Both the position numbers and the translations under genes were made by a program. Positions 5,136-26,381 of a DNA stretch of 64,000 nucleotides are shown here, piece after piece. This stretch comes from Chloroflexota bacterium (GTDB lineage Bacteria > Chloroflexota > Dehalococcoidia > Lucifugimonadales > Australimonadaceae), in contig VXQP01000074.1 of assembly GCA_009838965.1 (NCBI GenBank), positions 1-64,000 on the forward strand, written 5' to 3'. The first letter of the stretch is position 1. Each line of letters begins with the position of its first letter. The notes beneath the pieces were generated by a model, which saw only the letters and a list, made by a program, of their open reading frames with translations, was not told the DNA's origin and ran no database searches.

Positions 5136-5984
5136 TCAATGGGATGGCCCGCTCTTACTCGCTTGGTCATTATGAGTGTCGAATAGGAATTGCACGAGAG
5201 TGGAAGCAGAACCAACGACCAATTGCGCATGGCGTGGTGAGAGAGTACGATTGCCTGTCCTCCCGTGGCCTGTGCCATACCAATTGCGCAAGTCATTGAC
5301 ACTGCTCGCGATAGAACCAAGATTACTCACAATTCGTCTAATGGTTTCAGCTCCTTGTCGTGAGTCAGGAATGTCGTCACGTGTCAATTTCAGTTCCTTG
5401 AGGGTGGCCTTAACTAGTTCACTCATATCAGTGTTCTCTCTAATTGCTATGCCCCTCTCGTCTAGAATCGTCTTACAGCAAGTTTCAATCAGTTCTTTGG
5501 CTGAGCCAATGGCCAGTTCGGGATCAGAGCTAACGGCACCCTCTATACGGCTGAGCTGGCGTTTGATGTCTGTTGCGTCTAGACGGTCAGCAGTTTCCGA
5601 AAGCTTCACCAAGTTTGGCCCCCCGGCGACTAATCTGTTCGCTATAGCCATACAATCATTTCGTAATTCTTCCTCTGGGTCTCGGGCGGAATCAATCAGT
5701 TCCAGTAGTACCCTCCCCACCAATCCATCAATTTCCACTTCCCAAAATGACCGAAGTCGGTTAGCTTTAGATGAACCACGTCTATCATACTTTTCTGCAT
5801 ATATCTCAACATCGAAATGATGGAAGAGAGACTCGAAAGAAGTATTGCTGAACCCAAGAACGTATCCGCCTTCCATGCAAAGCAATCGCTCTAGCTTGAC
5901 CTTTTCGCTCGGGGTAAGGGGGCTCACTTGATTGCTCCTGAGTTCTTCTTCAGCCCACTCGCTCAATCGATGTTGCTCTGACAA
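5136..5984 (-). CDS. Abortive-infection C-terminal (Abi_C) domain protein
   Basis: This is a putative phage-defence protein of 282 residues. The C-terminal half matches the Abi_C pattern: DPELAIGSAKELIETCCKTIL (about 153-173), then LRNWYGTGHGR and a closing helix (ARHAQLVVGSAS... VQFLFDT). The N-terminal half is helical and charged and I do not recognise it. The start appears to be TTG at 5984 with a weak purine-rich site. The gene is clearly AT-richer and uses different codons from its neighbours, suggesting horizontal acquisition. It stands alone, convergent with rel. The effector activity cannot be read from the sequence. Confidence 0.75.
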   Translation of the reverse strand: MSEQHRLSEWAEEELRSNQVSPLTPSEKVKLERLLCMEGGYVLGFSNTSFESLFHHFDVEIYAEKYDRRGSSKANRLRSFWEVEIDGLVGRVLLELIDSARDPEEELRNDCMAIANRLVAGGPNLVKLSETADRLDATDIKRQLSRIEGAVSSDPELAIGSAKELIETCCKTILDERGIAIRENTDMSELVKATLKELKLTRDDIPDSRQGAETIRRIVSNLGSIASSVNDLRNWYGTGHGRTGNRTLSPRHAQLVVGSASTLVQFLFDTHNDQASKSGPSH

Positions 5985-13691: not shown

Positions 13692-15341
13692 ATGCCCGCA
13701 AAAGAGACGATCACCCTGGAAGACGCCGAGCGTGCGATAGGAGCAGCGATGGCCGCGGCGCGGCCCAACGAGCGCCCGTTCGCCCTGGCGGTCGTCGACG
13801 AGAGCGGCGCGCTCGTCTACTCCGTGCGGCGCGACGGCGCATCGGCGACCGACGTGCGGAACGCGGAGCGCAAGGCGTACACCGCCGCCTACATCGGGCG
13901 CGACACCCTCATCTACCGTCAGCAGATCTCGCACGACGGCCGCACCGTCGCCGACTGGTCGAACGACGGCGTGACGACGCTGCACGGCGGGCTGACGCTG
14001 CACCGGGCGAGCGAGGTCATCGGCGGCATCGGCGTGAGCGGCACCGGCGACGAGGACCGCGACGAGCGGCTCGCGCTCGCGGGCGCCGAGGCGATGGTCA
14101 AGCCCGCGGGCGACGCGCGGCTCGCGAACGCCGCGCTCCGTCCGAAGTTCCGCAGCGCGCCCGGCCCCGCGCTGAGCGACAAGGGCGCGCCCGGCAGGCC
14201 GAACAAGCGCACGACGACGCGGCTGCCCGGCCTCAGCGCGCCGGACGCCGCCACGCCGGACCTCGTGCAGGTCGGCGGGCTCTTCTTCACCTCGGGCGTG
14301 CGCGGCATCGACCTCGAGACCGGCATCATGCCGGACGACCCCGCGGAGCAGTTCCTGAACGCGTGGCGCAACCTGCGCACGCTCGTCGAGGCCGCCGGGC
14401 ACTCGACCGACAACATCGGCATCGTGACGAACTTCATCGACAGCCAGGACTTCCGGCCGCACATCAACACCGGCTGGCTGGAGCTGTTCCCGGACGCCGA
14501 CAACCGGCCCGCGCGCAAGACGACGTCCTACCCGCTGCCGCCCGGCGAGGGCGTCGAGCTACAGGCGATAGGCGTTGCCGGACAGCAGCGGCAGTGCATC
14601 GAGGTCGCCGGGCTGACGCACCGGGACCCGCTCCCGAACGGCGCGCGGCTGGGCGACTACGTCTTCTCGTCGGTCATCGTGCCGTGGGACCTGTCGACCT
14701 CGCTGCCGGTCATCGGTGAGGACGCGCAGACCGACCAGTGCTTCGACAACATGCGGGTGTTCATGGAGCACGCGGGCGGCACGGTGGACGACGTGGTGCT
14801 GCAGTGGGTGTACCTGAACGACTTCGCGTACCAGCCGTACATGGTGGACGTGTACCTGGAGGCGTGGCCCATCGGCCAGTACCAGGCGGCGCGCAAGACG
14901 TACCGCTACCCCATGGGCGGGCAGATCCAGCTGCAGGTGATCGGCAGGATAGGCGGCGAGCGGACGAACCACGAGATCGAGGGGCACGGGCACCACGACC
15001 CCATCCCGATGGGAGCGCGCATCGGCGACCTCTTCTGCTCGGGCGGCGTCTCCGGCGTCGACACGGCGGGGCCGGACAAGCTGGAGCCGGTGCCGGGCAT
15101 CGAGGGTCAGGCGCACCACGGCATCCGCAACATCCGGTCGCTGGTGGAGTCGGGCGGCGGCACGATGGACAACGTGGGCCTCATCACGCTGCTCATCCAG
15201 GACTACGCCGACCTGCCCGCGATCGACGCGGCATGGGATGCGATGTTCCCGGACCGCGACGACCGCCCGGCGCGGCAGGTGATGAAGATGGGGGTGCAGC
15301 GCGCCAACCGCGTCCAGCACCACATGATGGCGGTGCTCTAA
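13692..15341 (+). CDS. Four-domain fusion: GlcG-like domain plus three RidA-like domains
   Basis: A 549-residue cytoplasmic protein. Residues 1-137 form a GlcG/DUF336 domain (AERKAYTAAYIGR, TTLHGGLTLHRASEVIGGIGVSG). After a basic Gly/Pro linker come three RidA/YjgF-like domains at about 176-298, 303-421 and 427-549. Each has the strand-helix order of RidA and ends in an Arg-containing segment (PARKTT, AARKTY, PARQVM) equivalent to the substrate-binding Arg of RidA. In RidA the following strand holds a catalytic Glu; here it reads VELQAI and IQLQVI. RidA works as a trimer with active sites between subunits, so three fused copies may fold as one pseudo-trimer. It is last in the operon, three bases after DUF1330. 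Confidence 0.85.
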   Translation: MPAKETITLEDAERAIGAAMAAARPNERPFALAVVDESGALVYSVRRDGASATDVRNAERKAYTAAYIGRDTLIYRQQISHDGRTVADWSNDGVTTLHGGLTLHRASEVIGGIGVSGTGDEDRDERLALAGAEAMVKPAGDARLANAALRPKFRSAPGPALSDKGAPGRPNKRTTTRLPGLSAPDAATPDLVQVGGLFFTSGVRGIDLETGIMPDDPAEQFLNAWRNLRTLVEAAGHSTDNIGIVTNFIDSQDFRPHINTGWLELFPDADNRPARKTTSYPLPPGEGVELQAIGVAGQQRQCIEVAGLTHRDPLPNGARLGDYVFSSVIVPWDLSTSLPVIGEDAQTDQCFDNMRVFMEHAGGTVDDVVLQWVYLNDFAYQPYMVDVYLEAWPIGQYQAARKTYRYPMGGQIQLQVIGRIGGERTNHEIEGHGHHDPIPMGARIGDLFCSGGVSGVDTAGPDKLEPVPGIEGQAHHGIRNIRSLVESGGGTMDNVGLITLLIQDYADLPAIDAAWDAMFPDRDDRPARQVMKMGVQRANRVQHHMMAVL

Positions 15342-15346
15342 CCCTC

Positions 15347-15390
15347 CGACCAAGGATGCCAACGCCCCGGAATTCTGGCATCCTTGGTCG
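15347..15390. terminator. 15-bp perfect palindrome, likely bidirectional terminator or repeat
   Basis: CGACCAAGGATGCCA (15347-15361) pairs perfectly with TGGCATCCTTGGTCG (15376-15390) around a 14-base loop. It lies six bases after the RidA-fusion stop. There is no T-tract, so it may act as a transcript-stabilising hairpin. Confidence 0.55.
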
Positions 15391-15403
15391 CCGGTCCACG
15401 AGT

Positions 15404-15500
15404 ACCAAGAATGCCAATCCGACGCCTCCTGGCATCCTTGGTTTGGGGCGTTTGCAAGGCCGTGGCCTGCTTCCCGCGACCAAGGATGCAAGGATGCCAA
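15404..15500. repeat. Second and third copies of the CCAAGGATGCC element
   Basis: ACCAAGAATGCCA (15404-15416) pairs, with one mismatch, with TGGCATCCTTGGT (15430-15442). A third unpaired copy, GACCAAGGATGC followed by AAGGATGCCAACG, starts at 15478. CAAGGATGCG at 24741 is a related fragment. Confidence 0.6.
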
Positions 15501-15660
15501 CGAATTCACAACTTCGCGCCGGACCCATAGACCGTATCTATGGTTGGACCCCGAGCTATAGGCTCTGTCTATAGGTCGTGCACGGTCGACGGTCATGCAA
15601 CCAGCGTACGCGGGCACCCTCCGACCTCGATAGGGGCGCGTGTCAGTGGTTGGGGGGAGG

Positions 15661-16386
15661 CTATCTTTGTCGTCGCGAACTGCGGTGTAGCCCATTGCCA
15701 AAGGCACAAACCGCGAGAATTGGGCAACTGCGGCAATCAGGCTTTCGTGAGTGACAATGCGCTGCACTAATATCGATGAGGCCTAAGTTGAACTCGCGGG
15801 CATGGCTGCCAGGACGAAACTGCTCCCAAGACGCTGCGAGGCGAACGTCAGAGTAAGCCGCGCCGGTGTCTGAGAGTCCCAGAACTCGTCGTAGCACCCG
15901 CCCTGCTCCTTCGTCGATCATGGGCAATGGATGGTTGAAGGCCATGCAGAGAGTTGCCCTGGCACTGTATCGCCCGATTCCTGGCAGGGATTGCAGGTCT
16001 CGTAAGTTGCGTGGCACTTGTCCTTGGTAGTCTTCTACGAGGCGACGTGAGCACTCGACGAGTCTGTCCGCACGCTGAACAAGGCCGAGGGGCTTGAACC
16101 ACTTGCGGAGGTCGTCGACATTGCATTCAGCTAGTGAAGCAGGATCCGGATACGCGGCAACGAGATGGGTGTATGTTCCAACCACTCTCGCTGACTGGGT
16201 CTGGCGGAGCAGCACCTCCGCAATGAGAACATGGAACGGGTCCAGGGTCTCTCGCCAAGGGAATTCCCGCCCATTGCTGCGGAACCAACTCACTACAGAG
16301 GTCAGTAACTCATTCCTGACCCTCTGAATACGGCCTCTCTTCGGCTGTCGGTCGAGTGGAAACAAGCGCTCACCTAGCGATTGCAC
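15661..16386 (-). CDS. HhH-GPD Fe-S DNA glycosylase, thymine-DNA-glycosylase (Mig-like) type
   Basis: A MutY/Nth-superfamily glycosylase of 241 residues. The helix-hairpin-helix is LPGIG at 134-138, the catalytic Asp is D158 (MIDEG) and a 4Fe-4S loop has C211-x6-C218-x2-C221-x5-C227. It lacks the MutY C-terminal domain. Position 140, after GIGR, is Tyr; Nth has its catalytic Lys there and MutY a Ser, while the plasmid-borne Mig.Mth thymine glycosylase, which accompanies a 5mC methyltransferase, has Tyr. I infer removal of T from T:G mismatches formed by 5mC deamination. It is the last gene of the defence operon, overlapping the nuclease gene by 17 bases. Confidence 0.85.
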   Translation of the reverse strand: MQSLGERLFPLDRQPKRGRIQRVRNELLTSVVSWFRSNGREFPWRETLDPFHVLIAEVLLRQTQSARVVGTYTHLVAAYPDPASLAECNVDDLRKWFKPLGLVQRADRLVECSRRLVEDYQGQVPRNLRDLQSLPGIGRYSARATLCMAFNHPLPMIDEGAGRVLRRVLGLSDTGAAYSDVRLAASWEQFRPGSHAREFNLGLIDISAAHCHSRKPDCRSCPILAVCAFGNGLHRSSRRQR

Positions 16387-17362
16387 TGGACAAGGCCTCG
16401 GGTGACCAAGAACCTAGCCACTGATCGAGCTCTACTGCCGCGATACGAGGTGCCGTAGACAGGTCCACCTTGTAACTCGTCTCCGTAACGCCTGGCGGCT
16501 CCGGCACGCGAAAGTGAGGGATATCCACGGAACGGAACCAAGCAAGGCTCTGCTCTGCTTCAGCAACGCCGATTACCGGTCCGACGTCTGCTGAGGACTC
16601 CATACCAGCATGACGAACTGCCTTCTCCAGCTTTAGGTAGTCGAGCGTTCCGGTAAGGGCGCTCCTGCATTCATCGATGAGTTCCCGCAAGCTGAGGCCA
16701 GCATCGTCCTCAACCGCGACTATGGATGCGACGACGACCTCTTGGCCTTCAGCCGCGTAGATTTGCCTATGGGAGAAATAGTGCATGCGCTCCGGTCGCG
16801 TCGTGAGCTTCACTTCAACGCGATGGTGGCCTAAGGAGAAATCAAAGCGGCGAGTGACTTCGCTATGCCAGAAAGGGGCCCAGAATCGAAAGCCCCGCAC
16901 ACGGCTCATCAAGAACAATTCACCCCACAGGCCAAGTCGCTCTGCTTGGAGATCTTTGGCCGGGGTAACTGCAAATAGCCGAACCATCGCTCGAAAGAAT
17001 GACGTTAGAGCATGCCGGTCTACGTCACCTGTCTCGTAGCGTGCCAAGAAGGCCTCCGCAAGCAGGAGAAAGGTGTCTACGTCTGCCGACTCGGATGTCT
17101 CGCAGTGCAGAGCGTGCAGCAACTCAGTCCTCGGAGATTCATCCATTCCTGCCAAGCTATAGCTTTGCCCAACGTGCAGAGAGACCTTGTTTGTTCGCAG
17201 CGGAGGCTCGACGGCGGTTGCTTCAGCCTGAACAAAGAGAACGGGGTGACCGGTCACATCGACACCCAGGAGGACCCCCCGGCTTCCTGGTACCGGAGCC
17301 ACGGTAAATACATGGCCAGATGGTCTGTCCTTCAACTCTGAGAGCAATTCTAGGAGGCTCAC
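16370..17362 (-). CDS. PD-(D/E)XK nuclease family protein (DUF4420)
   Basis: A 330-residue putative restriction endonuclease. The active site reads E148 (LWGELFLM), D174 (RRFDFSLG), then E183 and K185 in VEVKLTT, a full PD-(D/E)XK set. The rest follows DUF4420: an N-terminal ligand-type domain (PVLFVQAEA) and a C-terminal SYKVDLSTAP segment. It overlaps the Z1 gene by four bases and the glycosylase gene by 17, so it belongs to the same transcript. In such systems it is the expected DNA-cutting subunit. Confidence 0.85.
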   Translation of the reverse strand: MSLLELLSELKDRPSGHVFTVAPVPGSRGVLLGVDVTGHPVLFVQAEATAVEPPLRTNKVSLHVGQSYSLAGMDESPRTELLHALHCETSESADVDTFLLLAEAFLARYETGDVDRHALTSFFRAMVRLFAVTPAKDLQAERLGLWGELFLMSRVRGFRFWAPFWHSEVTRRFDFSLGHHRVEVKLTTRPERMHYFSHRQIYAAEGQEVVVASIVAVEDDAGLSLRELIDECRSALTGTLDYLKLEKAVRHAGMESSADVGPVIGVAEAEQSLAWFRSVDIPHFRVPEPPGVTETSYKVDLSTAPRIAAVELDQWLGSWSPEALSSAIAR

Positions 17363-19527
17363 GGATTGTCGTCCCGCACAACATATCTAAGGTCGAAGCG
17401 TGGGTCGTCCTTCGGAATAAACAGTGCAAGAGCTGTGGTTTCAACAGGCCGATCTAACCCATCCCCCTTAACCCTGACTACGTGAACTTGGAACTGTACC
17501 CTACCTTCATGGATGTTTTCATCCCCCGGATAGTAACGAGGGTCAGATGAATCTCTGCCCGGCGTTCGACCCTGCATTGGGTTCACTCGACCCTTCCGCT
17601 TGGTTCGCTCTCGTATGCCGCCCTTCACCATGAACATAACATTCAAGGAGGGTAACACCCCAGCAAGCAGCAGTCGTGCCAAGTACTCGCTTGTATAGGA
17701 AGCATCCCAGCCGGTCCCTTCAGTTTCGATGTTAGCTAGTAGCCCTGATATGACGTCTTCGGTGGGGCAATCCTCAATCACAAGGTGCTCAACGTTCCCA
17801 AAGCGTCTGGCGTACGCCTCGGTATGCTGGGCAAGGAATAGCCTTACACTCTGGAGGTTACGCGCGGCGACGGCCTCGTCTTCTATGGGGTGTTCCTGCA
17901 CGTCCCATCCTACGGCTCCAAACCTCCGAAAGCTCGCTACACTCGACCTGGTTGGCTTCAGGCCCATGTTCGAATCCAGGGACAGCATCCGAGGCCACTC
18001 TCTGATGGATAGCTGCTGCCGTTGGTTTCGACGGAGCGCTTCCCAGAAGTCGTCTTCGTGCCTCAGAAGCTCAGTATAGTCGTCTCGCAGTCGAGCGCTT
18101 ACATATATGCGGCAGACATCAAGATAGTCATTCTTGTAACCGAACCATCGTGCTCTTTGCTCCATGGTGTCGGCGTTTGTGTCGTTCTTCGCGCGACGGG
18201 TGATATATGTGACCGCCAGACCCTCGATGGTTACGCCCCGACCCAGCATGTTTCCGCCGACAAGGATGTTATTCTTCAGTCTGAGTGGCGTCCCAATGGG
18301 GTCACGGCCTAAGCGCAAGCTGTTGACCATCCATACCTCCACGAGCCAGGCCTCATGAAGCAACTGTGCACGAACCTCCTCCCAGGTTGGGGGTTGTTGC
18401 GCCGTGGAGCACAGGTCGTCATAGGCCACCCGCATCAGTAACATCAACTCATGCTTTGCGGGGTCATTATCCGACAGTCTGAGGCTGTCACGCCAGAGTT
18501 CCATGAGGTTCTTGATTGCCGCTTGAAGTCTCTCGTGGCTTGCGCGTGAGTCGCTGTTGTGGATGAGCATCGAGTGCCGTACGTTAGACTCGCGCAAGTG
18601 CCGGATGGCACCGCCGACAAGAAAGGTTGCGATAGCCTGCCTAAGGCCATCTGGTACTCCTTGGACTTGTTCATCCTCGGCTTCTGCTAAAGACACCAGC
18701 TTCACATATCGATCACGATTTGGCCCAAAGAAAGTCGCTCCACCACAATACCCTTTCCCCGGCTCAACCAGAACTCCAAAATCAGGTGACAAACCATCGA
18801 TGCCAGAGATCAGTAGATTTGCCTGAGGCGTCGCTGTATACGCCACATATGCGTGAACTTGGAGTGCGCCCCGTAGGGCAAGGATGTTCCTATATATGGC
18901 AGAACTCCTTCCACGGCGGAACTGGGTGTTGAGGGATGCCTCGTCTCCTTCGTCATCAATGATAAGCGTTGGGAATCCTCTGAGTTCGGGCGTCGACAGC
19001 ACACGCCGAGTGTCGTCCAGTCGTCCGCGGTGTTTCAACACAACAATTAGAGCATGGCCACCACTGTAGAGCACGCTTCGGACGACATCCGCATCTTGGG
19101 GAGTTGGATTCTTGAAGGGTGTGAGGCTCGGTCGTCCTGCTTCCAAGTCGTTGTAGAGCCGAGTGTAGTTCTGCTCCAGCAGCGGGTTCTTCGTGCCAGC
19201 CAGCACCACCGTAAGCCGGTAGCCATTGTCTATAGCCAGGGCGATTAGGGATGTGTAGGAAAGGGTCTTGCCGCTCTGCACTTTGCCAAGCGCAAGTCCC
19301 GTGACCCTCCGCTCCCTGTCGGTTGGATTCGGGCACTGCCCGAGAATCGACGCGGCAGTCTGTACAACATCGTCCCACTCGTCATCGTCGACGCGTTCTA
19401 GGTACCGGCTCCTGAGGCGTTGTATCTCCTCGCCATCGATAGACGGCCCCCACAGCCTCAAGGCCGTCGACAGAGGATCGACTCCCATAGCCCCGCTAGG
19501 ACTGACCATGATCGACCTCGATTTCAC
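17359..19527 (-). CDS. Z1-domain superfamily II helicase/ATPase
   Basis: A 722-residue Z1 protein found in MORC/MutL-linked restriction systems. Walker A is GKVQSGKT (81-88) and the Walker B/DExx-like box is TLIIDDEGDEAS. Later helicase motifs include LLISGIDGLSPD, GGNMLGRGVTIEGLAVTY and TMEQRARWFGY, the motif VI Arg finger. It probably couples ATP hydrolysis to DNA translocation for the nuclease. Its start overlaps the end of the GHKL gene by about 32 bases; ATG at 19509 is an alternative start. Confidence 0.9.
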   Translation of the reverse strand: MKSRSIMVSPSGAMGVDPLSTALRLWGPSIDGEEIQRLRSRYLERVDDDEWDDVVQTAASILGQCPNPTDRERRVTGLALGKVQSGKTLSYTSLIALAIDNGYRLTVVLAGTKNPLLEQNYTRLYNDLEAGRPSLTPFKNPTPQDADVVRSVLYSGGHALIVVLKHRGRLDDTRRVLSTPELRGFPTLIIDDEGDEASLNTQFRRGRSSAIYRNILALRGALQVHAYVAYTATPQANLLISGIDGLSPDFGVLVEPGKGYCGGATFFGPNRDRYVKLVSLAEAEDEQVQGVPDGLRQAIATFLVGGAIRHLRESNVRHSMLIHNSDSRASHERLQAAIKNLMELWRDSLRLSDNDPAKHELMLLMRVAYDDLCSTAQQPPTWEEVRAQLLHEAWLVEVWMVNSLRLGRDPIGTPLRLKNNILVGGNMLGRGVTIEGLAVTYITRRAKNDTNADTMEQRARWFGYKNDYLDVCRIYVSARLRDDYTELLRHEDDFWEALRRNQRQQLSIREWPRMLSLDSNMGLKPTRSSVASFRRFGAVGWDVQEHPIEDEAVAARNLQSVRLFLAQHTEAYARRFGNVEHLVIEDCPTEDVISGLLANIETEGTGWDASYTSEYLARLLLAGVLPSLNVMFMVKGGIRERTKRKGRVNPMQGRTPGRDSSDPRYYPGDENIHEGRVQFQVHVVRVKGDGLDRPVETTALALFIPKDDPRFDLRYVVRDDNP

Positions 19528-21055
19528 CAGCTCGCCTGAGCACCTTGTTCATGTACATGCGAAAGTCACTAGGGCTTACGAGTCCGTTCGAAGAGATCTG
19601 AAGAGCCATACGCTCTGCCAGAGCTAAGGACAGGACAAACTTCTGCAGCAGGGCAAGTGAATCTCTGTTGCCCAAGTAGGGGGCTAGGAAAGGGTGGGCG
19701 GTGTTCAGGAAGATGTCTATCTCGTTATCGCGTGGGACATTCAGTTGCATCCAATGGGCATCACTGAGTTGATCCTGCCAGTGGAGTCGAAAGAGCCAGA
19801 TCTCAGTCCCGACATCAAGGCGATACAACACTGGTCCATTGCTGGCGGCCCGTATCTTGTCGGTGTCGGCCCGCTCAGCCTCCACAGTCTTCGGAGGGTC
19901 GGGCAGCCGAAGCTCGTCATGCACTGCATTGCCGAACCGCTGGTCAGAGAAGACCCTTCTGAGGGGCTCGGAAACTACCTCCATTACCGGCTGCGTTATT
20001 GGCTTGCCGCGCTCTCGGTAGCCCTCGGCCTTATCCATATAGTCTTGGCATGCTCGCTTCAGTTGCTCTATGAAATCATCCTCTAGTCCACCGGACCAGT
20101 CGAAAGCGTCTTTCGCTTGCGTGACCGGCCAAGCATCCATTCTAATTTCACCAACGAGACGCTGTGCGCGGAAGGTATTACCTTGACCGAATATCTCCGC
20201 CGGCTTGTACCCTTCCCCTGGCCCACCGACAATGACTCGTCCGCGCCTTAGCAAGGCGAAGCCGGCGTCCCTCTGACTTCCAGGCGTCCTTACTCCAACC
20301 CAGCCCTCGGCACGTAGAGTGGTTCCTTCAGACTCCCACGGGACGGCTATGGCGAATCCCTTTCGCCATACATTCTTGACGCCGTTGTGCAGATTCTCTT
20401 CGAGAAAGCTGGGCTCCTCGAATGAGATGGGCTCGCCATTCCATAGAATCTCGATCTCTCCAGAGCGTAGATCCTCTCGGTACATGCTGCCGAGTTGGTC
20501 TTTCACCCGGCCTGGTGTCCTGCCCCGAATCGGCTTGTAGAGCCCCTCGATAGTAATGGATGTGTAGTGAGTCTCCGGCTCCGTAGGTGCTACCCCAACA
20601 GCGACGCTATCTACAAGTTCCGGCACATGTACACGGGCAGTGTACTCAGCACTGGAGCCAAGCTTGCTGGTGCGAATCGTCCAAGTCGTACCAAACCAGC
20701 ATGCAGCTGTTTTGAGTCCCATGCCGTACTCACAGCGCCCTGTGGGGTCTGGTGGTGGTCTGTCTAGCACGACGGCCCTGGTCAGTTCCTCTGTGTCCAT
20801 GCCGTGCGCGTTGTCCAGGATGGTCAGGATGTTTTGCTCGCTATCGTACGCCACCTCGACTCGCAAGTTTCCAAGGTTTCCTTCAAGTCTGTACGCCGCA
20901 ATGAGGTCTGCTCGATGGTCGTAGTAATTCTGAGTAGAGTTGTCCACAAACTCAGCAATGGCATACCAAGGTTTGTAGCTCAATCGCCTGTAAGTCGCGT
21001 ACACACTGGCGGCTGGTCGAATGTCTATCGTCACCTCAATGTCGGAAGCCACCAT
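19496..21055 (-). CDS. MORC/MutL-like GHKL ATPase of restriction system
   Basis: A 519-residue Hsp90-fold ATPase. The GHKL motifs are complete: EFVDNST (E35, D38, N39), LDNAHGMD (D81, G85) and EYGMGLKTA (G111, G113, K115). A transducer-like second domain follows (VGVRTPGSQRDAGFALLRRGRVIVGGP). ATP-driven dimerisation probably forms a clamp on DNA that signals to the Z1 helicase and nuclease, as proposed for prokaryotic MORC relatives. It starts ten bases after the methyltransferase stop. Confidence 0.9.
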   Translation of the reverse strand: MVASDIEVTIDIRPAASVYATYRRLSYKPWYAIAEFVDNSTQNYYDHRADLIAAYRLEGNLGNLRVEVAYDSEQNILTILDNAHGMDTEELTRAVVLDRPPPDPTGRCEYGMGLKTAACWFGTTWTIRTSKLGSSAEYTARVHVPELVDSVAVGVAPTEPETHYTSITIEGLYKPIRGRTPGRVKDQLGSMYREDLRSGEIEILWNGEPISFEEPSFLEENLHNGVKNVWRKGFAIAVPWESEGTTLRAEGWVGVRTPGSQRDAGFALLRRGRVIVGGPGEGYKPAEIFGQGNTFRAQRLVGEIRMDAWPVTQAKDAFDWSGGLEDDFIEQLKRACQDYMDKAEGYRERGKPITQPVMEVVSEPLRRVFSDQRFGNAVHDELRLPDPPKTVEAERADTDKIRAASNGPVLYRLDVGTEIWLFRLHWQDQLSDAHWMQLNVPRDNEIDIFLNTAHPFLAPYLGNRDSLALLQKFVLSLALAERMALQISSNGLVSPSDFRMYMNKVLRRAGEIEVDHGQS

Positions 21056-21065
21056 CTATCTCCCG

Positions 21066-22619
21066 TTAGCTCGCACCGACGCCAGCTAGATTTCTTGTTT
21101 CGTTAGCTTCGATTCCTTCAGTCGGAAGAAGCCTCTTGGCAATTTCGTGCACTACTTCAACGTGGACAGCGTTTCCCAATGCCTTGAAAGTTGCCGTCCT
21201 AGAGTCTGGAACGCGGAAGTCGGGGGGGAACCCTTGCAATCGCAGGCCTTCGACTCGGGACAGGTGTCTCCGCTCCGGACCAAGGATAGGAATCTGTGTA
21301 CTTGTCATAGCTACCAAAGATGGGCTATTCGTGTATCTCTTCGCACGTAGCCCAGAGGGTCGGAACTGAAGTATGTGCTTCCAGAGATTCCTCTCCTCGC
21401 CTTGGCAATTCCATTCAAGTTTGCGGAGGGAAGGTGGGAATGACCGAAGTTCGCCTATCCAGTCAATCGGAAGTGCATTCCGAATCGATGTCAACCAGTC
21501 ACGATTTGATCGAATAAACCGTATCTTCCATTCTGGAAATGCGTCAACTTCTTTCCGAGCGTAGCTTGGCAGTGCTTTGAAGCTATCCCAAACAGCAGCC
21601 TTCCCGTTGTTGGAGTGCAGGGAGTCAAACGTGGAAGCTAGTGCTTGAGCCCAAGGAGTGGTATCCTCATAGCAGTATGTTGCATCAATCTCGTCTCCCC
21701 AAATGGGGAACGACGGCAGGTTAAATCTCTCCTCAGGTAAGGCTTGAAGGAAGGCGTTCCAGTGCTCAATACAACGATAGTGTTGGTCTACGAGTCGCGT
21801 CTCCTTTCGGTCACGCTCTGATAGTTCCTCTTGGTCTTGAACTATGGTAGCTATTGAGGTACGTGCCTTTCGGTTTACCTGAGGGAAGACCTCTTGGGGA
21901 AGACCCAAGAGGGATGCTACAGCGAAGAAGCGCTCTCGGTGATGAGGAGAGTCGAGATGGTGTGGGGACAGTAAGCCCTGGCCACCGCTAGCCACATGCT
22001 CTGTACCTTTAACGTCATAGCCAAGTTCTTGTAGGCTGGCCTTGACGATCTGCCAAGTCCGCCCTTCATCGTGGCGCTCAAAGTTCCCGACATTCTCCAG
22101 AATCACGTATGTTGGTTTCTGTGCCCGTAGGACCTCTAGAATCTCATGAAAGAGTGTCCCTGAGGTCTTGTCTTTCAGACCAGCCTGAGTGCCCGACTTG
22201 GAGAACGGTTGACAAGGAAATCCGGCGCAGAGCACGTCATGAGGCGGCACGAGGCCCTTTGAGAGCCTGATGTCTCCGTGAATCGCAGGTCCATCCGGAA
22301 AGTTGAGCGCGTAAACCTTCTGTAGTTCACTATCTATCTCTGAGGCAAAAACGCACTCGTGGCCGAGTCTCTCAAGGGCTTGGCGGAAACCTCCAAGGCC
22401 GGCGAAGAGGTCGATAAACCTCACGGGAGGCGCTCTCTTCGGCGACAGGTAACTGGGAGTCGAATGTCCTCCTGTGTCAACCCCCGCCTCGCTGTGGAAG
22501 TGCTGGTCAACTGCTCCCTTCCTTCTGCCGTACAGAGCTTGCAGCCACCTTATCGCCTTACGGTAACATCCGGCAAGAGTAGCTGACAGCGCGCAGCACT
22601 CCGTCTGGAAGGAGGACAT
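21066..22619 (-). CDS. DNA cytosine-5 methyltransferase
   Basis: It transfers methyl from SAM to C5 of cytosine in a recognition site. Motif I is FIDLFAGLGGF (68-78), motif IV FPCQPFS with catalytic C136, motif VI ENV (175-177) and motif VIII DSPHHRERFF. A target-recognition region precedes motifs IX-X (RLQGFPPDF... KALGNAV). The open frame starts at ATG 22619 (517 residues) with no Shine-Dalgarno. A GTG at codon 66, just before motif I, is an alternative giving ~452 residues. It is the first gene of the five-gene defence operon. The recognition site cannot be deduced. Confidence 0.93.
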   Translation of the reverse strand: MSSFQTECCALSATLAGCYRKAIRWLQALYGRRKGAVDQHFHSEAGVDTGGHSTPSYLSPKRAPPVRFIDLFAGLGGFRQALERLGHECVFASEIDSELQKVYALNFPDGPAIHGDIRLSKGLVPPHDVLCAGFPCQPFSKSGTQAGLKDKTSGTLFHEILEVLRAQKPTYVILENVGNFERHDEGRTWQIVKASLQELGYDVKGTEHVASGGQGLLSPHHLDSPHHRERFFAVASLLGLPQEVFPQVNRKARTSIATIVQDQEELSERDRKETRLVDQHYRCIEHWNAFLQALPEERFNLPSFPIWGDEIDATYCYEDTTPWAQALASTFDSLHSNNGKAAVWDSFKALPSYARKEVDAFPEWKIRFIRSNRDWLTSIRNALPIDWIGELRSFPPSLRKLEWNCQGEERNLWKHILQFRPSGLRAKRYTNSPSLVAMTSTQIPILGPERRHLSRVEGLRLQGFPPDFRVPDSRTATFKALGNAVHVEVVHEIAKRLLPTEGIEANETRNLAGVGAS

Positions 22620-22620
22620 A

Positions 22621-22664
22621 TCGTGCTTGCACGCTTGAGCAGGGGCGAGTATGTTTAAGCACGA
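22621..22664. promoter_or_regulatory. Inverted repeat next to the methyltransferase start
   Basis: TCGTGCTT (22621-22628) and AAGCACGA (22657-22664) form 8-bp arms 28 bases apart, immediately upstream of the ATG at 22619. This is a plausible operator or leader hairpin controlling the operon. Confidence 0.4.
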
Positions 22665-22717
22665 CGAAGGGCCACCTTAGCCCGTGAAGCAACAGGTGAC
22701 CCAACGTCTTGAAGGCA

Positions 22718-22740
22718 CGAGGGGGTTTGATCGCCCCTCG
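22718..22740. promoter_or_regulatory. Hairpin in the divergent intergenic region
   Basis: CGAGGGG (22718-22724) pairs with CCCCTCG (22734-22740) around nine bases, midway between the divergent methyltransferase and winged-helix genes. No convincing -10 box was found for either gene. Confidence 0.35.
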
Positions 22741-22864
22741 TAAAGGCGGTGGACGCGCCTAGGCGCTGTCTACGCTGATGACTCGTCCGCCGCTGCCTTC
22801 ACCATACCCCGGCTAGCTGTCTCTCGAACATAGGGAACAACGCGCCGAGAACTGGGAGAGGGTG

Positions 22865-23452
22865 ATGGACAAGCAGGCTGTACACGCGGGGGTGCGCGAG
22901 CGGGTCGCTAGCCTTTCGGCTGAACTCGATTACCACATTCGAGAGGCAGACCGCATCCGCGGTGCTCTGGACGCGGCGGAAGTGTTTCTGCAGTGCGACG
23001 TGGACTCTCCACCGGATTACTCCGGCGTCGATTTCCTCGGCCAATCCATGCACCGCAGCCTATTACAGATTGCAGAACGCAACGGCGGAACGGTTGTGAC
23101 CCGAGATGTAACCGGGGTGTTCGTGGAGGCTGGGCTTTACACATCCAGAGACGACGCGAACATAGCGATCCACGACACTCTACAGAAGAGCCGGGAGTTC
23201 ACCAAGGTGGGGGTCGGAGTCTATGCGAGGGTCGACCGTACGCCGATCACTGATGGACCCGCCGCGTCGAGGCGTCCGTCGGAGATCCTCAAGGCACTCC
23301 TCCTTCAGGGAAAGCAGATCAACAAGGGCTTGGCAGTTGACGCCCTGCACGAGGCTGGGTACGACTTCGGTTTGAGAAACCCGCAACGAGTCGCCGGTGG
23401 GGCATTGAGACAGGCGATGAGGGCCTTGGACAAAGGCAGGCGGACAGTTTAG
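22865..23452 (+). CDS. Coiled-coil/winged-helix-like protein beside the defence island
   Basis: A protein of about 195 residues that I cannot place in a family. Residues 10-45 are helical and charged (RERVASLSAELDYHIREADRIRGAL). Two segments look like winged helices: LLQIAERNGGTVVTRDVTGVFVEAG... VGVGVYARV (about 65-125) and PSEILKALLLQGKQINKGLAVDALHEAGYDFG (about 138-170). It starts at ATG 22865 (or GTG 22862) after GGGAGAGGG and diverges from the methyltransferase. A regulator of, or accessory specificity factor for, the island is possible but not shown. Confidence 0.6.
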   Translation: MDKQAVHAGVRERVASLSAELDYHIREADRIRGALDAAEVFLQCDVDSPPDYSGVDFLGQSMHRSLLQIAERNGGTVVTRDVTGVFVEAGLYTSRDDANIAIHDTLQKSREFTKVGVGVYARVDRTPITDGPAASRRPSEILKALLLQGKQINKGLAVDALHEAGYDFGLRNPQRVAGGALRQAMRALDKGRRTV

Positions 23453-23510
23453 CAGTGGGAACACTGCCCGAGACCCCGCGCTCAGACTGAGGAACTGCCG
23501 GGCTTTTCTT
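23452..23510 (+). terminator. Possible terminator
   Basis: GCAGTG/CACTGC (23452-23467, loop GGAA) starts at the stop codon. Further on, CCGGGC followed by TTTTCTT (23498-23510) can pair with GCCCG at 23466-23470. Confidence 0.35.
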
Positions 23511-23617
23511 CAGGATGGACACCTACTATAGAACTCTGAGTCGCCTAGGGGTTGTGCATCGAGTCAGCGCCCCCGCCCCCACTGAGACCCCCGCCTAGGA
23601 ACGACGGGCCGACCTCG

Positions 23618-23623
23618 TACAAT
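23618..23623 (+). promoter_or_regulatory. -10 box of the SDR gene
   Basis: TACAAT lies 22 bases before the ATG, with GGAGAGG between them. No clear -35 was found. Confidence 0.45.
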
Positions 23624-23644
23624 AGGATTGTGGAGAGGAATCGG

Positions 23645-24550
23645 ATGGCCGCTCCTCGAACGATCCTGGTCACCGGCGCTACGGGGTACATCGGCGGAAG
23701 GCTGGTGCCCCGTCTGCTGGAGGACGAGCGCCGCGTTCGCGTCCTCGTCCGCGACCGGGAGCGCGTGCGCTCGCGTCCGTGGTCCGAGCAGGTCGAGGTG
23801 GCGGTCGGCGACGTGCTCGACCCCGCGACGCTGTCCGAGGCGCTGGACGGCGTCGACACCGCGTACTACCTGGTCCACAGCATGGGGAGCGGCCCCGGGT
23901 TCCACGAGCTGGACGTCCAGGCGGCCCGTACCTTCGGCCAGGCCGCGGCAGAGGCGGGCGTCGGGCACGTCATCTACCTCGGCGGGCTGGGGTCGGGCGC
24001 TGACCTGTCGCCGCACCTGCGCTCGCGACAGGAGTGCGGGCAGGCGCTGCGCGCGGGCGGGGTCGCGGTCACGGAGTTCCGGGCCGCCGTGGTCGTCGGG
24101 GCGGGCAGCATCTCGTTCGAGATGATCCGCTACCTCGTCGAGCGTCTGCCGGTCATGGTCTGCCCCCGATGGCTCTACTCGCACGTGCAGCCGATAGCGG
24201 TCGACGACCTGCTGGACTACCTCGTCGCGGCGCTGGACACGCCGGCGTGCCGGGGCCGCATCATCGAGGTGGGCGGGAAGGACGTCACGACCTACGAGGG
24301 GCTGATGCTCGACTACGCGAGAGCGCGGGGGCTTCGCCGGCTGCTGCTTCCGGTGCCGGTGCTGACGCCGCGCCTGTCGTCGTACTGGGTGCACTGGTTC
24401 ACGCCGATCCCCACCGCCATCACGCGGGCGCTCGTGGAGGGTCTGCGCAACGACGTGGTGGTGACCGACGATCTGGCGCGGTCGCTCTTCCCGCAGATCG
24501 AGCCTCGGGACTATGCGTCGGCGCTCGGGAGCGTGATGGGGGAGGGGTAG
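23645..24550 (+). CDS. NAD(P)-binding atypical SDR / NmrA-like protein
   Basis: A Rossmann-fold protein of 301 residues. It begins with the dinucleotide motif TILVTGATGYIGGRLVPRLL and VRVLVRDRERV, continues with DTAYYLVHSMGSG and ends in VQPIAVDDLLDYLVAAL and GGKDVTTYEGLMLDYA. This matches the atypical SDR group often called NAD(P)H-binding or NmrA-like, acting as oxidoreductases or sensors. The ATG at 23645 follows GGAGAGG. A TACAAT box at 23618-23623 is a likely -10. It stands alone. Confidence 0.85.
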   Translation: MAAPRTILVTGATGYIGGRLVPRLLEDERRVRVLVRDRERVRSRPWSEQVEVAVGDVLDPATLSEALDGVDTAYYLVHSMGSGPGFHELDVQAARTFGQAAAEAGVGHVIYLGGLGSGADLSPHLRSRQECGQALRAGGVAVTEFRAAVVVGAGSISFEMIRYLVERLPVMVCPRWLYSHVQPIAVDDLLDYLVAALDTPACRGRIIEVGGKDVTTYEGLMLDYARARGLRRLLLPVPVLTPRLSSYWVHWFTPIPTAITRALVEGLRNDVVVTDDLARSLFPQIEPRDYASALGSVMGEG

Positions 24551-24879
24551 CCCTCACCCGCCGCAGCGGGGTACCTCTCGTGGGTACCCAGGGCGCCCAC
24601 AAGGGACGCCCCTACACCAGGCGGCGCCGGGCAACCCTCACCCGCCGCTGCGCGGCTTCCCTCTCCCAGGGGGCGAGGGGGGAGAACACACCCGAGAGAG
24701 ATGTTTCGACTTCGCCTGCGGCTCCGCTCAACATGACAATCAAGGATGCGAGGTTCCTGCCTCCGCAGGAACGACGGAGCTCCGCTCCTGCTCAACTCCC
24801 CTCTCCCCCCGGGAGAGGGGGTGCGTGCCATGCACGCGGGGGTGAGGGTTGCTGGTTGGCCGAGGGCGCCCGCGCCCGT
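24551..24879. repeat. Composite intergenic repeat cluster
   Basis: No gene is seen. CCCTCACCCGCCGC occurs at 24551 and 24635-24648, and its inverse (GCGGGGGTGAGGG) at 24836-24848, bracketing nested inverted CCTCTCCC/GGGAGAGG arms (24799-24820). Inside is a TTCCTGC-CTCC-GCAGGAA hairpin (24754-24771). Related blocks recur at 27170-27260. This looks like several MITE- or REP-like elements inserted together. Confidence 0.65.
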
Positions 24880-24885
24880 TACACT
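24856..24885 (+). promoter_or_regulatory. Promoter of the biotin carboxylase gene
   Basis: TTGGCC (24856-24861), an 18-base spacer and TACACT (24880-24885) end eight bases before the ATG at 24894. The message would be essentially leaderless. Confidence 0.5.
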
Positions 24886-24893
24886 AATCTCCC

Positions 24894-26381
24894 ATGTTCG
24901 ACACCGTGCTCATCGCCAATCGCGGCGAGATCGCCTGCCGCGTCATCCGCACCTGCCAGCGTCTCGGCATCGAGGCCGTGGCGGTCTACTCGTCCGCCGA
25001 CGCGAAGGCGAAGCACGTCGGCATGGCCGACCGCGCCATAGAGATCGGCGGGGCGCCGGCGTCGCAGTCGTACCTGAACGGCGAGTCGATCATCAAGGCT
25101 GCGAAGAAGGCGAAGGCGCAGGCCATCCACCCCGGCTACGGCTTCCTCTCCGAGAACCCGTCGTTCGTCGAGGCGGTCGAGAAGGAAGGGCTCACGTTCA
25201 TCGGGCCGTCGTCGAAGGTCATCGCGCAGATGGGCGACAAGATCATGGCGCGCAGGCTCGCGCGCGAGGCCGGGGTGCCCATCAGCCCGGGCGCGGAGGG
25301 CGAGATAGACGACGCGCAGGCGGTGGCCATCGCCCGGGGCATCGGCTTCCCGCTGATGATCAAGGCGGCGGACGGCGGCGGCGGCATGGGCATCCGCGTC
25401 GTCAACAGTATCGAGGAGGTGCCGGAGGCGGTGACGCGCGCTCGGTCGCAGGCGCTGAACGCGTTCGGCAGCAGCCGCGTCTACATGGAGCGCCGCATCC
25501 AGAACGCGTCGCACGTCGAGGTGCAGGTCATCGCGGACCACCACGGCAAGGCGCTGCACCTGTTCGAGCGCGACTGCTCGGTGCAGCGCCGCAACCAGAA
25601 GGTGGTCGAGGAGACGCCGTGCGCCAAGCTGACGCCGGAGATCCGGAGCGCGCTGCTCGAGTCCGCGGTCCGGCTCGTGAAGAGCATCGGCTACACGAAC
25701 GCGGGCACCATCGAGTACCTGTACGACGCCAGGGAGGAGAAGTTCTACTTCCTGGAGATGAACACGCGGCTGCAGGTGGAGCACCCCGTCACGGAGATGG
25801 CCACGGGGCTGGACCTCGTCGAGCTGCAGCTGCGGGTCGCGGCGGGCGAGCGTCTGCCGCTCTCGCAGAGCGACGTCCACCAGCACGGGGCGGCCATCGA
25901 GGCGCGCATCTACCCGGAGGACCCGGTGATGCTGCTGCCGACCGCGGGGACGGTCTCAGTGCTCGTCGAGCCGGAGGGGCCGAACGTGCGCGTCGACAGC
26001 GCGCTGTACCAAGGCTACGAGGTGTCGCCGCACTACGAGTCGATGATGGCGAAGCTGATCGTCCACGGCGAGACGCGGGAGGAGGCGATCGCGCACATGC
26101 TGGCGGCGCTCGACCAGTACGTCATCGAGGGGCCGGTCGTGAACATCCCGCTCGTGCGGCGGGTGATGGAGCACAAGGACTTCAGGAACGGCGCGTTCGA
26201 CAACGCGTTCCTTGAGCGGATGCTGAACGAACCGGCGCGCAACAGCGCGCTCGCCGCCGCGATAGCGGTCGCGATGGCGCTGGAACAGGAGTCCCCGCAG
26301 GAGATACAGTTCAGCAGGTGGCGGATGCACGGCCGGCGCATGGCGATGGCGAACCGCCTCAGCAGCGGAGTGTTGCAGTGA
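24894..26381 (+). CDS. accC: Biotin carboxylase (acyl-CoA carboxylase-type)
   Basis: An ATP-grasp enzyme that carboxylates biotin with bicarbonate and ATP. The 495 residues begin FDTVLIANRGEIACRVIRTCQRLGIEAVAVYS. They show the Gly-rich ATP loop KAADGGGGMGIRVV, HVEVQVIAD, ERDCSVQRRNQKVVEETP, and the active-site FLEMNTRLQVEHPVTEMATGLDLV. It is slightly longer than E. coli AccC, with a C-terminal Met/Ala-rich tail. It overlaps the biotin carrier gene (GTGA). No carboxyltransferase gene is nearby, so the acceptor substrate is unknown. Confidence 0.95.
   Translation: MFDTVLIANRGEIACRVIRTCQRLGIEAVAVYSSADAKAKHVGMADRAIEIGGAPASQSYLNGESIIKAAKKAKAQAIHPGYGFLSENPSFVEAVEKEGLTFIGPSSKVIAQMGDKIMARRLAREAGVPISPGAEGEIDDAQAVAIARGIGFPLMIKAADGGGGMGIRVVNSIEEVPEAVTRARSQALNAFGSSRVYMERRIQNASHVEVQVIADHHGKALHLFERDCSVQRRNQKVVEETPCAKLTPEIRSALLESAVRLVKSIGYTNAGTIEYLYDAREEKFYFLEMNTRLQVEHPVTEMATGLDLVELQLRVAAGERLPLSQSDVHQHGAAIEARIYPEDPVMLLPTAGTVSVLVEPEGPNVRVDSALYQGYEVSPHYESMMAKLIVHGETREEAIAHMLAALDQYVIEGPVVNIPLVRRVMEHKDFRNGAFDNAFLERMLNEPARNSALAAAIAVAMALEQESPQEIQFSRWRMHGRRMAMANRLSSGVLQ

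Follow-up and report, generated by a model that had tools for sequence, protein, structure and literature searches.

A predicted MORC-Z1 restriction-modification operon with its own putative T:G mismatch glycosylase in a Chloroflexota bacterium

Five genes in a variable insertion site

The window analysed here is a stretch of 64,000 nucleotides from a Chloroflexota bacterium (assembly GCA_009838965.1, contig VXQP01000074.1, positions 1 to 64,000), and at 15661-22619 it holds five intact and closely packed open reading frames (ORFs), all on the minus strand, which encode a C5 cytosine methyltransferase (MTase), a MORC-type GHKL-S5 ATPase, a Z1-type ATPase of superfamily 2 (SF2), a DUF4420 protein and a HhH-GPD glycosylase (Table 1). 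We consider it likely that these proteins form an ATP-dependent restriction-modification (R-M) system which carries its own enzyme for repairing deaminated 5-methylcytosine (5mC). The Pfam assignments of all five exceed the curated cut-offs and agree with the original prediction, which had been made from the letters of the sequence and had described five co-directional genes at this place, joined by overlaps or a 10-base gap. In the order MTase, MORC, Z1, DUF4420, glycosylase the spacings are indeed +10, -32, -4 and -17 bases, and the genes are, as had also been claimed, richer in AT than their surroundings (G+C 0.53-0.57 versus about 0.67-0.71 in the flanks). The five ORFs thus stand, but the overlap of 32 bases between the MORC and Z1 genes holds only if the first GTG is taken as the Z1 start, ATG codons at 19509 and 19488 being alternatives, and for the MTase a start at the GTG of position 22424 is more probable than one at 22619, to which its longest ORF extends, since the first 65 residues of that ORF are not conserved and the relatives of the family begin at the GTG. 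Counted from there the MTase has 452 residues, as has the MTase of the related locus L031. Promoter and terminator scans gave nothing better than shuffled sequence.

Table 1. Positions of the five genes and of the variable site that holds them, in window numbering
Feature	Coordinates	Strand	Evidence
C5 cytosine methyltransferase (MTase), M subunit	21066..22424	-	PF00145 2.8e-62; TIGR00675 above cut-off
MORC-type GHKL-S5 ATPase, putative ATP-gated DNA clamp	19496..21055	-	PF13589 (HATPase_c_3) 5.2e-14
Z1-type SF2 ATPase, putative double-stranded DNA translocase	17359..19527	-	PF10593 2.4e-47
DUF4420 PD-(D/E)XK nuclease, putative cutting subunit	16370..17362	-	PF14390 4.2e-18
MIG-type HhH-GPD [4Fe-4S] glycosylase, putative T:G / U:G mismatch repair	15661..16386	-	HhH-GPD 5.2e-12
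Variable insertion hotspot holding the cassette	15342..24891	.	blastn vs G405, G407, G403, G402

Among the defence models of PADLOC, Helicase_II fits the Z1 protein (3.1e-55), type II MTase models fit the MTase and 'Type II nicking endonuclease' fits the glycosylase, while none matched the MORC or the DUF4420 protein. The best PADLOC model of the MTase is DruM2, and a reading of the locus as Druantia was dropped because the other Druantia proteins are absent.

Comparison with related genomes places the operon in a variable site. In the sister genera G405 and G407 this site is empty, window position 15347 being followed by 24892, so that only about 55-70 bases separate the gene ending at 15341 from the one whose start is near 24894 (window numbering). 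At the same site the congener G403 (locus L158, G403:C19:184400-193400) has Vsr, a C5-MTase, a UvrD/PD-(D/E)XK helicase-nuclease, an AAA_21 ATPase and an HNH_2 protein, a gene set that is predicted to be a different R-M system and in which a 5mC system would again bring its own T:G repair enzyme, namely Vsr; and the congener G402 has a single protein that combines HSDR_N, N6_Mtase and Methylase_S domains. Since three different R-M-like systems occupy one site in one genus, the site is an R-M hotspot. The five-gene cassette is a horizontal acquisition. Just outside the 3' end of the operon, at 15362-15498, a CCAAGGATGCC-type unit recurs in a cluster of short repeats, both inverted and direct, which may mark the insertion border.

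The ATPases and the nuclease

MORC ATPases take part in transposon silencing and DNA condensation in animals and plants. For prokaryotes, a role of MORC proteins was predicted in 2008 by Iyer, Abhiman and Aravind (PMC2292703), whose third type of MORC operon is described there as combining a Z1-type SF2 helicase with a novel restriction endonuclease and DCM, with or without Vsr. The original prediction had cited this work correctly, and the motifs that its account names are present in the window. Thus the MORC protein carries GFALLRRGRVI, a match to the MORC-defining S5 motif GhXhhpXXRhl, and the Z1 protein carries DTMEQRARWFG, a match to DThhQXuRhFG. Furthermore, the claim that key motifs are intact was borne out by conservation: the GHKL residues E35, D38, N39, D81, G85, K115 and K315 of the MORC protein are conserved in 42 relatives, the Z1 motifs QSGKT, DDExD, TATPQ and QRxRxxG are intact and invariant or nearly so among relatives, and E148, D174, K185 and Q200 of the DUF4420 protein are invariant in 78-79 sequences, with E183 falling in the ExK.

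Searches by sequence or profile gave no usable PDB homologues of the Z1 and DUF4420 proteins, and their folds are described from AlphaFold models. In that of the 722-residue Z1 protein (predicted local distance difference test score, pLDDT, 89.6) both RecA lobes, up to about residue 514, can be aligned with Mfd (Z 19.4), RIG-I and FANCM (Z 18.7), and a Foldseek search with the same model ranked the HsdR motor of EcoR124I first. The model suggests an ATPase of translocase-like build, with the Pfam Z1 region (295-512) as its second RecA lobe instead of a separate add-on domain, and a correspondence of DThhQXuRhFG to helicase motif VI. In the DUF4420 model (pLDDT 92.8), residues 142-314 align with Hjc (Z 6.7, root-mean-square deviation 3.6, 107 residues), followed by SwaI, EcoRV and RecU, and the top nine rows are all PD-(D/E)XK nucleases, the Z-scores of this VIA-align comparison being modest; Foldseek found no significant match, so that the nucleases surfaced only in VIA-align. 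Taken together, the models indicate an Hjc/EcoRV-like nuclease fold, whose expected active site is formed by the invariant polar residues. The N-terminal domain of the DUF4420 protein has weak structural matches only (the MotA DNA-binding domain at Z 4.0), which are uninterpretable.

Distribution of the cassette and replacement of its methyltransferase

Our survey comprises 94 non-redundant loci, drawn from plasmids, viral contigs and representative genomes, that encode a Z1 protein of the same kind as in the window. Among those whose neighbourhood could be assessed, 85 of 87 have MORC as the gene immediately upstream of Z1, 78 of 83 have DUF4420 as the one immediately downstream of Z1, and 76 of 82 have a C5-MTase immediately upstream of MORC; in the remaining six a C5-MTase is present elsewhere in the locus. 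MTase-MORC-Z1-DUF4420 is hence a stable four-gene cassette of fixed order with a variable fifth gene, and the co-occurrence of its genes is far beyond chance; rare co-occurrence, which had been named as grounds for refuting the original prediction, is not what a neighbourhood search reveals across phyla. The hosts belong to Bacteroidota, Pseudomonadota, Clostridia, Actinomycetota, Chloroflexota, Acidobacteriota, Planctomycetota and Nitrospirota, and include the archaeon Methanoperedens, whose contig stops inside Z1. A Rathayibacter plasmid has exactly these four genes, and prophage-like contigs carry the cassette too. In the viral contigs L118, L119, L120 and L124 the operon is found at the contig end, with DUF4420 stopping there, which resembles the position of cargo at the edge of a prophage. 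No near relative in complete E. coli genomes was found by megablast when the Enterobacter homologue served as query.

The commonest fifth gene is Vsr (16 of the 94 loci), while other loci have in this position an AspBHI-N/Mrr_cat endonuclease, an HNH_2 protein or an MTaX1 protein. There is only a weak signal, from 16 loci, that Vsr travels with the MTase rather than with the core. The AspBHI_N plus Mrr_cat gene (L045:12026-13279, with homologues in L039, L047 and L052) resembles a 5mC-dependent endonuclease, and it directly follows a system that is itself expected to make 5mC.

The MTase of the cassette can apparently be replaced while the other three proteins are kept, a detail that is new. 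Between loci L090 and L102 the identity is 88% for Z1, 88% for MORC and 71% for DUF4420, but 46% for the target-recognition region (TRD) of the MTase, and no segment of MORC, Z1 or DUF4420 drops in step with the TRD; between L093 and L102, where the MTases are alike, the TRD windows are 83-97% identical. In the window's own group the MTase of L030 differs (42% identity) while the core proteins are 57-68% and the glycosylase 53% identical, and in L079 a very divergent C5-MTase (25%) occupies the same operon position. Furthermore, an exploratory test of 74 loci, which are related to each other, found no core region that consistently follows TRD similarity once core similarity is removed, as compared with a correlation with the TRD of r = 0.85 for the catalytic part of the MTase and of r = 0.33, among close pairs, for the N-terminal part of MORC. 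Either all these MTases would have one common target, as a TRD that is partly conserved across the family would allow, or the core itself would be non-specific.

The second of these options leads to a version of the R-M reading, and one compatible with it, in which the MTase is the sequence reader and the MORC-Z1-DUF4420 core, itself non-specific, would be directed to DNA or held back from it by the MTase or by the methylation that this has left, so that any C5-MTase could be plugged in. Retention of the core upon MTase replacement speaks for this notion, as does the failure of every MORC, Z1 and DUF4420 region to follow the TRD consistently. With at least 90% conservation in 20 of 192 TRD columns a common target is however possible, in which case the core could read the DNA directly, and the correlation of the MORC N-terminal part also argues against a core that is indifferent to sequence. 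We regard the MTase as sole reader as a possible but rather doubtful arrangement.

The glycosylase and the predicted restriction-modification system

The best PDB match of the fifth gene product is 1kea, which is MIG.MthI (E 1.2e-40), well ahead of MutY, next at 3e-28, and of Nth. MIG.MthI is a plasmid-encoded thymine/uracil-DNA glycosylase next to an NgoPII-type R-M system, and the likeness lends good support to the earlier suggestion that the operon has its own mismatch-repair enzyme. Y140 and D158 correspond to MIG Y126 and D144, a leucine is found at the position of MIG L187, and all four [4Fe-4S] cysteines are present (C-x6-C-x2-C-x5-C). The protein is furthermore not a MutY by its residues or its size, since it has S and L at the MutY V45/Q182 positions and, at only 241 residues, lacks the extra C-terminal domain of MutY. 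The residues fit the report that V45 and Q182 of EcMutY are conserved in MutY and not in Mig.MthI (PMC2714593). The host's own MutY (L129), by comparison, has V and Q at the adenine-specificity positions and 349 residues, and its own Nth (L130) has a lysine where the MIG-type enzyme has tyrosine. The host genome encodes no Vsr and one C5-MTase only, that of this operon, and for this reason the glycosylase is the only dedicated candidate found there for repair of deaminated 5mC; MutL is present.

Relatives of the glycosylase likewise keep company with cytosine MTases. On unrelated plasmids, a cytosine MTase lies within about 2 kb of the MIG-like gene in 8 of the 10 records whose surroundings were read. 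These are pFV1, where mig itself lies with the NgoPII-type system, a plasmid from Caldicellulosiruptor that also encodes a PLD restriction enzyme, one from Thermus and five from haloarchaea. The haloarchaeal plasmids L136:5161-8239 and L139:5211-8292 each have a short block that encodes a MIG-like glycosylase, a large ATP-binding protein and a cytosine MTase, and this block may be a reduced relative of such systems. Among Chloroflexota Z1 loci, 9 of 30 have a MIG-like glycosylase, whereas the glycosylase density of the window's genome gives an expectation of 0.036 per 18-kb locus (binomial P ~7e-7, kinship between loci ignored). These glycosylases fall into separate clades (the window with L030, L031 and L186, support 100/100; L188 with L193; L189 with L197; L018), and their position differs as well: in the window's group the gene is attached to the DUF4420 end, whereas in the MZA-like loci, which have a larger Z1, it adjoins the MTase, which it overlaps in the Chloroflexota loci L018, L188 and L193. 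Since both clades and gene positions differ, the association with Z1 operons probably arose more than once, convergently within Chloroflexota. No glycosylase relatives were confirmed in viral contigs.

The gene's place in a defence operon with overlapping genes might also suggest that the glycosylase is an effector, that is a restriction glycosylase attacking modified phage bases, and HhH-GPD enzymes that excise 5mC do exist in plants. We find this very improbable: the nearest solved relative is a T:G enzyme with the same tyrosine and aspartate, excision of 5mC would hit the host's own mark, and the relatives adjoin cytosine MTases in systems with very different nucleases, as expected of a repair enzyme.

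Compared with the third MORC operon type of Iyer et al., each feature that we looked for was found in the window, which has the MORC S5 motif, the Z1 motif, a protein of restriction endonuclease fold with E-D-ExK and a cytosine MTase. The difference is the MIG-type glycosylase in the place of Vsr: their account of this type gives Vsr as a frequent companion and makes no mention of a glycosylase (PMC2292703), nor does it describe the fixed order of four genes, the host range or the replacement of the MTase. The four-gene core is common and was already predicted in 2008, and it is the glycosylase that is unusual. No experimental paper on this four-gene system was found in the open-access literature, and since this compact cassette also occurs in prophages and in bacteria that can be cultured, one of them Enterobacter cancerogenus M004 (L115), the 2008 prediction for prokaryotic MORC proteins is directly testable.

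The MZA system (mzaABCDE) likewise combines a GHKL ATPase, a Z1 protein and a DUF4420-type protein, and the locus might be related to MZA and act by abortive infection or signalling, with the MTase as an incidental gene. The Z1 and DUF4420 proteins do match MzaC and MzaD weakly, but with 135.5 of 1500 bits and 19.3 of 420 they fall far below the curated cut-offs, and MzaB gave no match at all. MZA moreover has a Z1 protein of about 900 residues, a GHKL protein of MzaB type and AIPR, whereas the window has 722 residues, a MORC-type GHKL protein and no AIPR: no Pfam AIPR match (MzaE) was found among the island proteins, where there is also no further ORF of that size. Loci with a Z1 of about 900 residues, on the other hand, do match MzaB, MzaC and MzaD, and the MZA-type loci carry these with AIPR. 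As the MTase is, furthermore, nearly always the first gene of the window's cassette, a relationship in which it is incidental seems improbable. A predicted system of Miller et al. 2022, with a core of a 925-residue Z1 protein, a DUF4420-type protein and a cytosine MTase (PMC9523054), has three kinds of core gene that the window has too, but the window's Z1 belongs to a shorter family, and from its description the Miller system looks like a member of the ~900-residue Z1 family.

The R-M reading has a precedent in CglI, whose related Z1 protein N.CglI shows ATP hydrolysis on DNA that contains unmethylated sites and, together with R.CglI, is required for cleavage (PMC4267653). CglI and NgoAVII share with the window a C5-MTase and a Z1-containing SF2 ATPase; their nuclease is however a PLD-B3 protein, whereas the window has DUF4420 and an added MORC, and Pfam finds no PLD domain in any of its five proteins. 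For the repair branch, MIG.MthI on pFV1 shares subfamily residues and linkage to a cytosine R-M system, which there is a simple type II system of NgoPII type and here an ATPase-rich one. Dcm-Vsr very-short-patch repair similarly couples a repair enzyme for deaminated 5mC to a C5-MTase, but Vsr, of unrelated fold, nicks in sequence context, whereas a glycosylase removes the base.

We propose that the C5-MTase would methylate some sequence in the host genome, and that on DNA without the methyl mark the Z1 ATPase, the DUF4420 nuclease and MORC would assemble as a complex in which Z1 would translocate double-stranded DNA and DUF4420 would cut, with MORC as an ATP-gated clamp that may couple or synapse complexes, as MutL does for its nuclease partner. 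Where 5mC deaminates to T, the MIG-type glycosylase would excise T from the T:G pair and base-excision repair would restore the site, which would spare the cell accumulated mutations and unprotectable sites. The R-M reading draws its support from the fixed cassette order, the conserved catalytic residues, the translocase- and HsdR-like Z1, the nuclease-like DUF4420, the N.CglI precedent and the other R-M-like systems found at the same site in congeners, while a built-in repair function is argued for by the MIG-like residues, the location of MIG genes by cytosine MTases and the lack of Vsr in the genome. As far as computation goes, the R-M interpretation of the original prediction is thus supported, with restriction, its ATP dependence, a methylation target and repair as predicted properties.

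Some observations nevertheless weigh against this interpretation. No DNA-recognition domain was identified in the Z1, MORC or DUF4420 proteins, which leaves unexplained how the cutting complex would find unmethylated sites; in CglI and NgoAVII a B3 DNA-binding domain is part of the nuclease subunit, and only in complex with that subunit does the Z1 ATPase act on DNA with unmethylated sites (PMC4267653). In addition, VcSduA, a GHKL ATPase domain fused to a nuclease, defends without an MTase (PMC12137116), and the MTase could consequently be accessory here. Vsr and the glycosylase, finally, occur together in none of the loci, yet only about one such locus is expected by chance, so that their exclusivity is not significant.

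As the glycosylase variant shows, R-M systems can draw on two unrelated enzymes against the same 5mC problem, and a testable reason for there being two types is suggested by the link of this variant with MTase replacement. A non-specific MORC-Z1-DUF4420 engine might leave the decision between self and non-self to the C5-MTase that happens to be plugged in, and a T:G glycosylase that tolerates different sequences, as opposed to the sequence-bound Vsr, might then permit free exchange of MTases without loss of 5mC-deamination repair; we offer this as a speculation that is rather unlikely.

Adjoining the operon, a divergent gene of 196 residues at 22862-23452 (plus strand) has a weak AbiEi match (E 0.0062), and no relatives of it were found in the plasmids or loci examined. 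A second stretch of low G+C (about 0.58-0.60 at 4-7 kb) holds an ORF of 282 residues at 5136-5984 on the minus strand, the C-terminal half of which resembles, by eye, an abortive-infection protein of Abi_C type.

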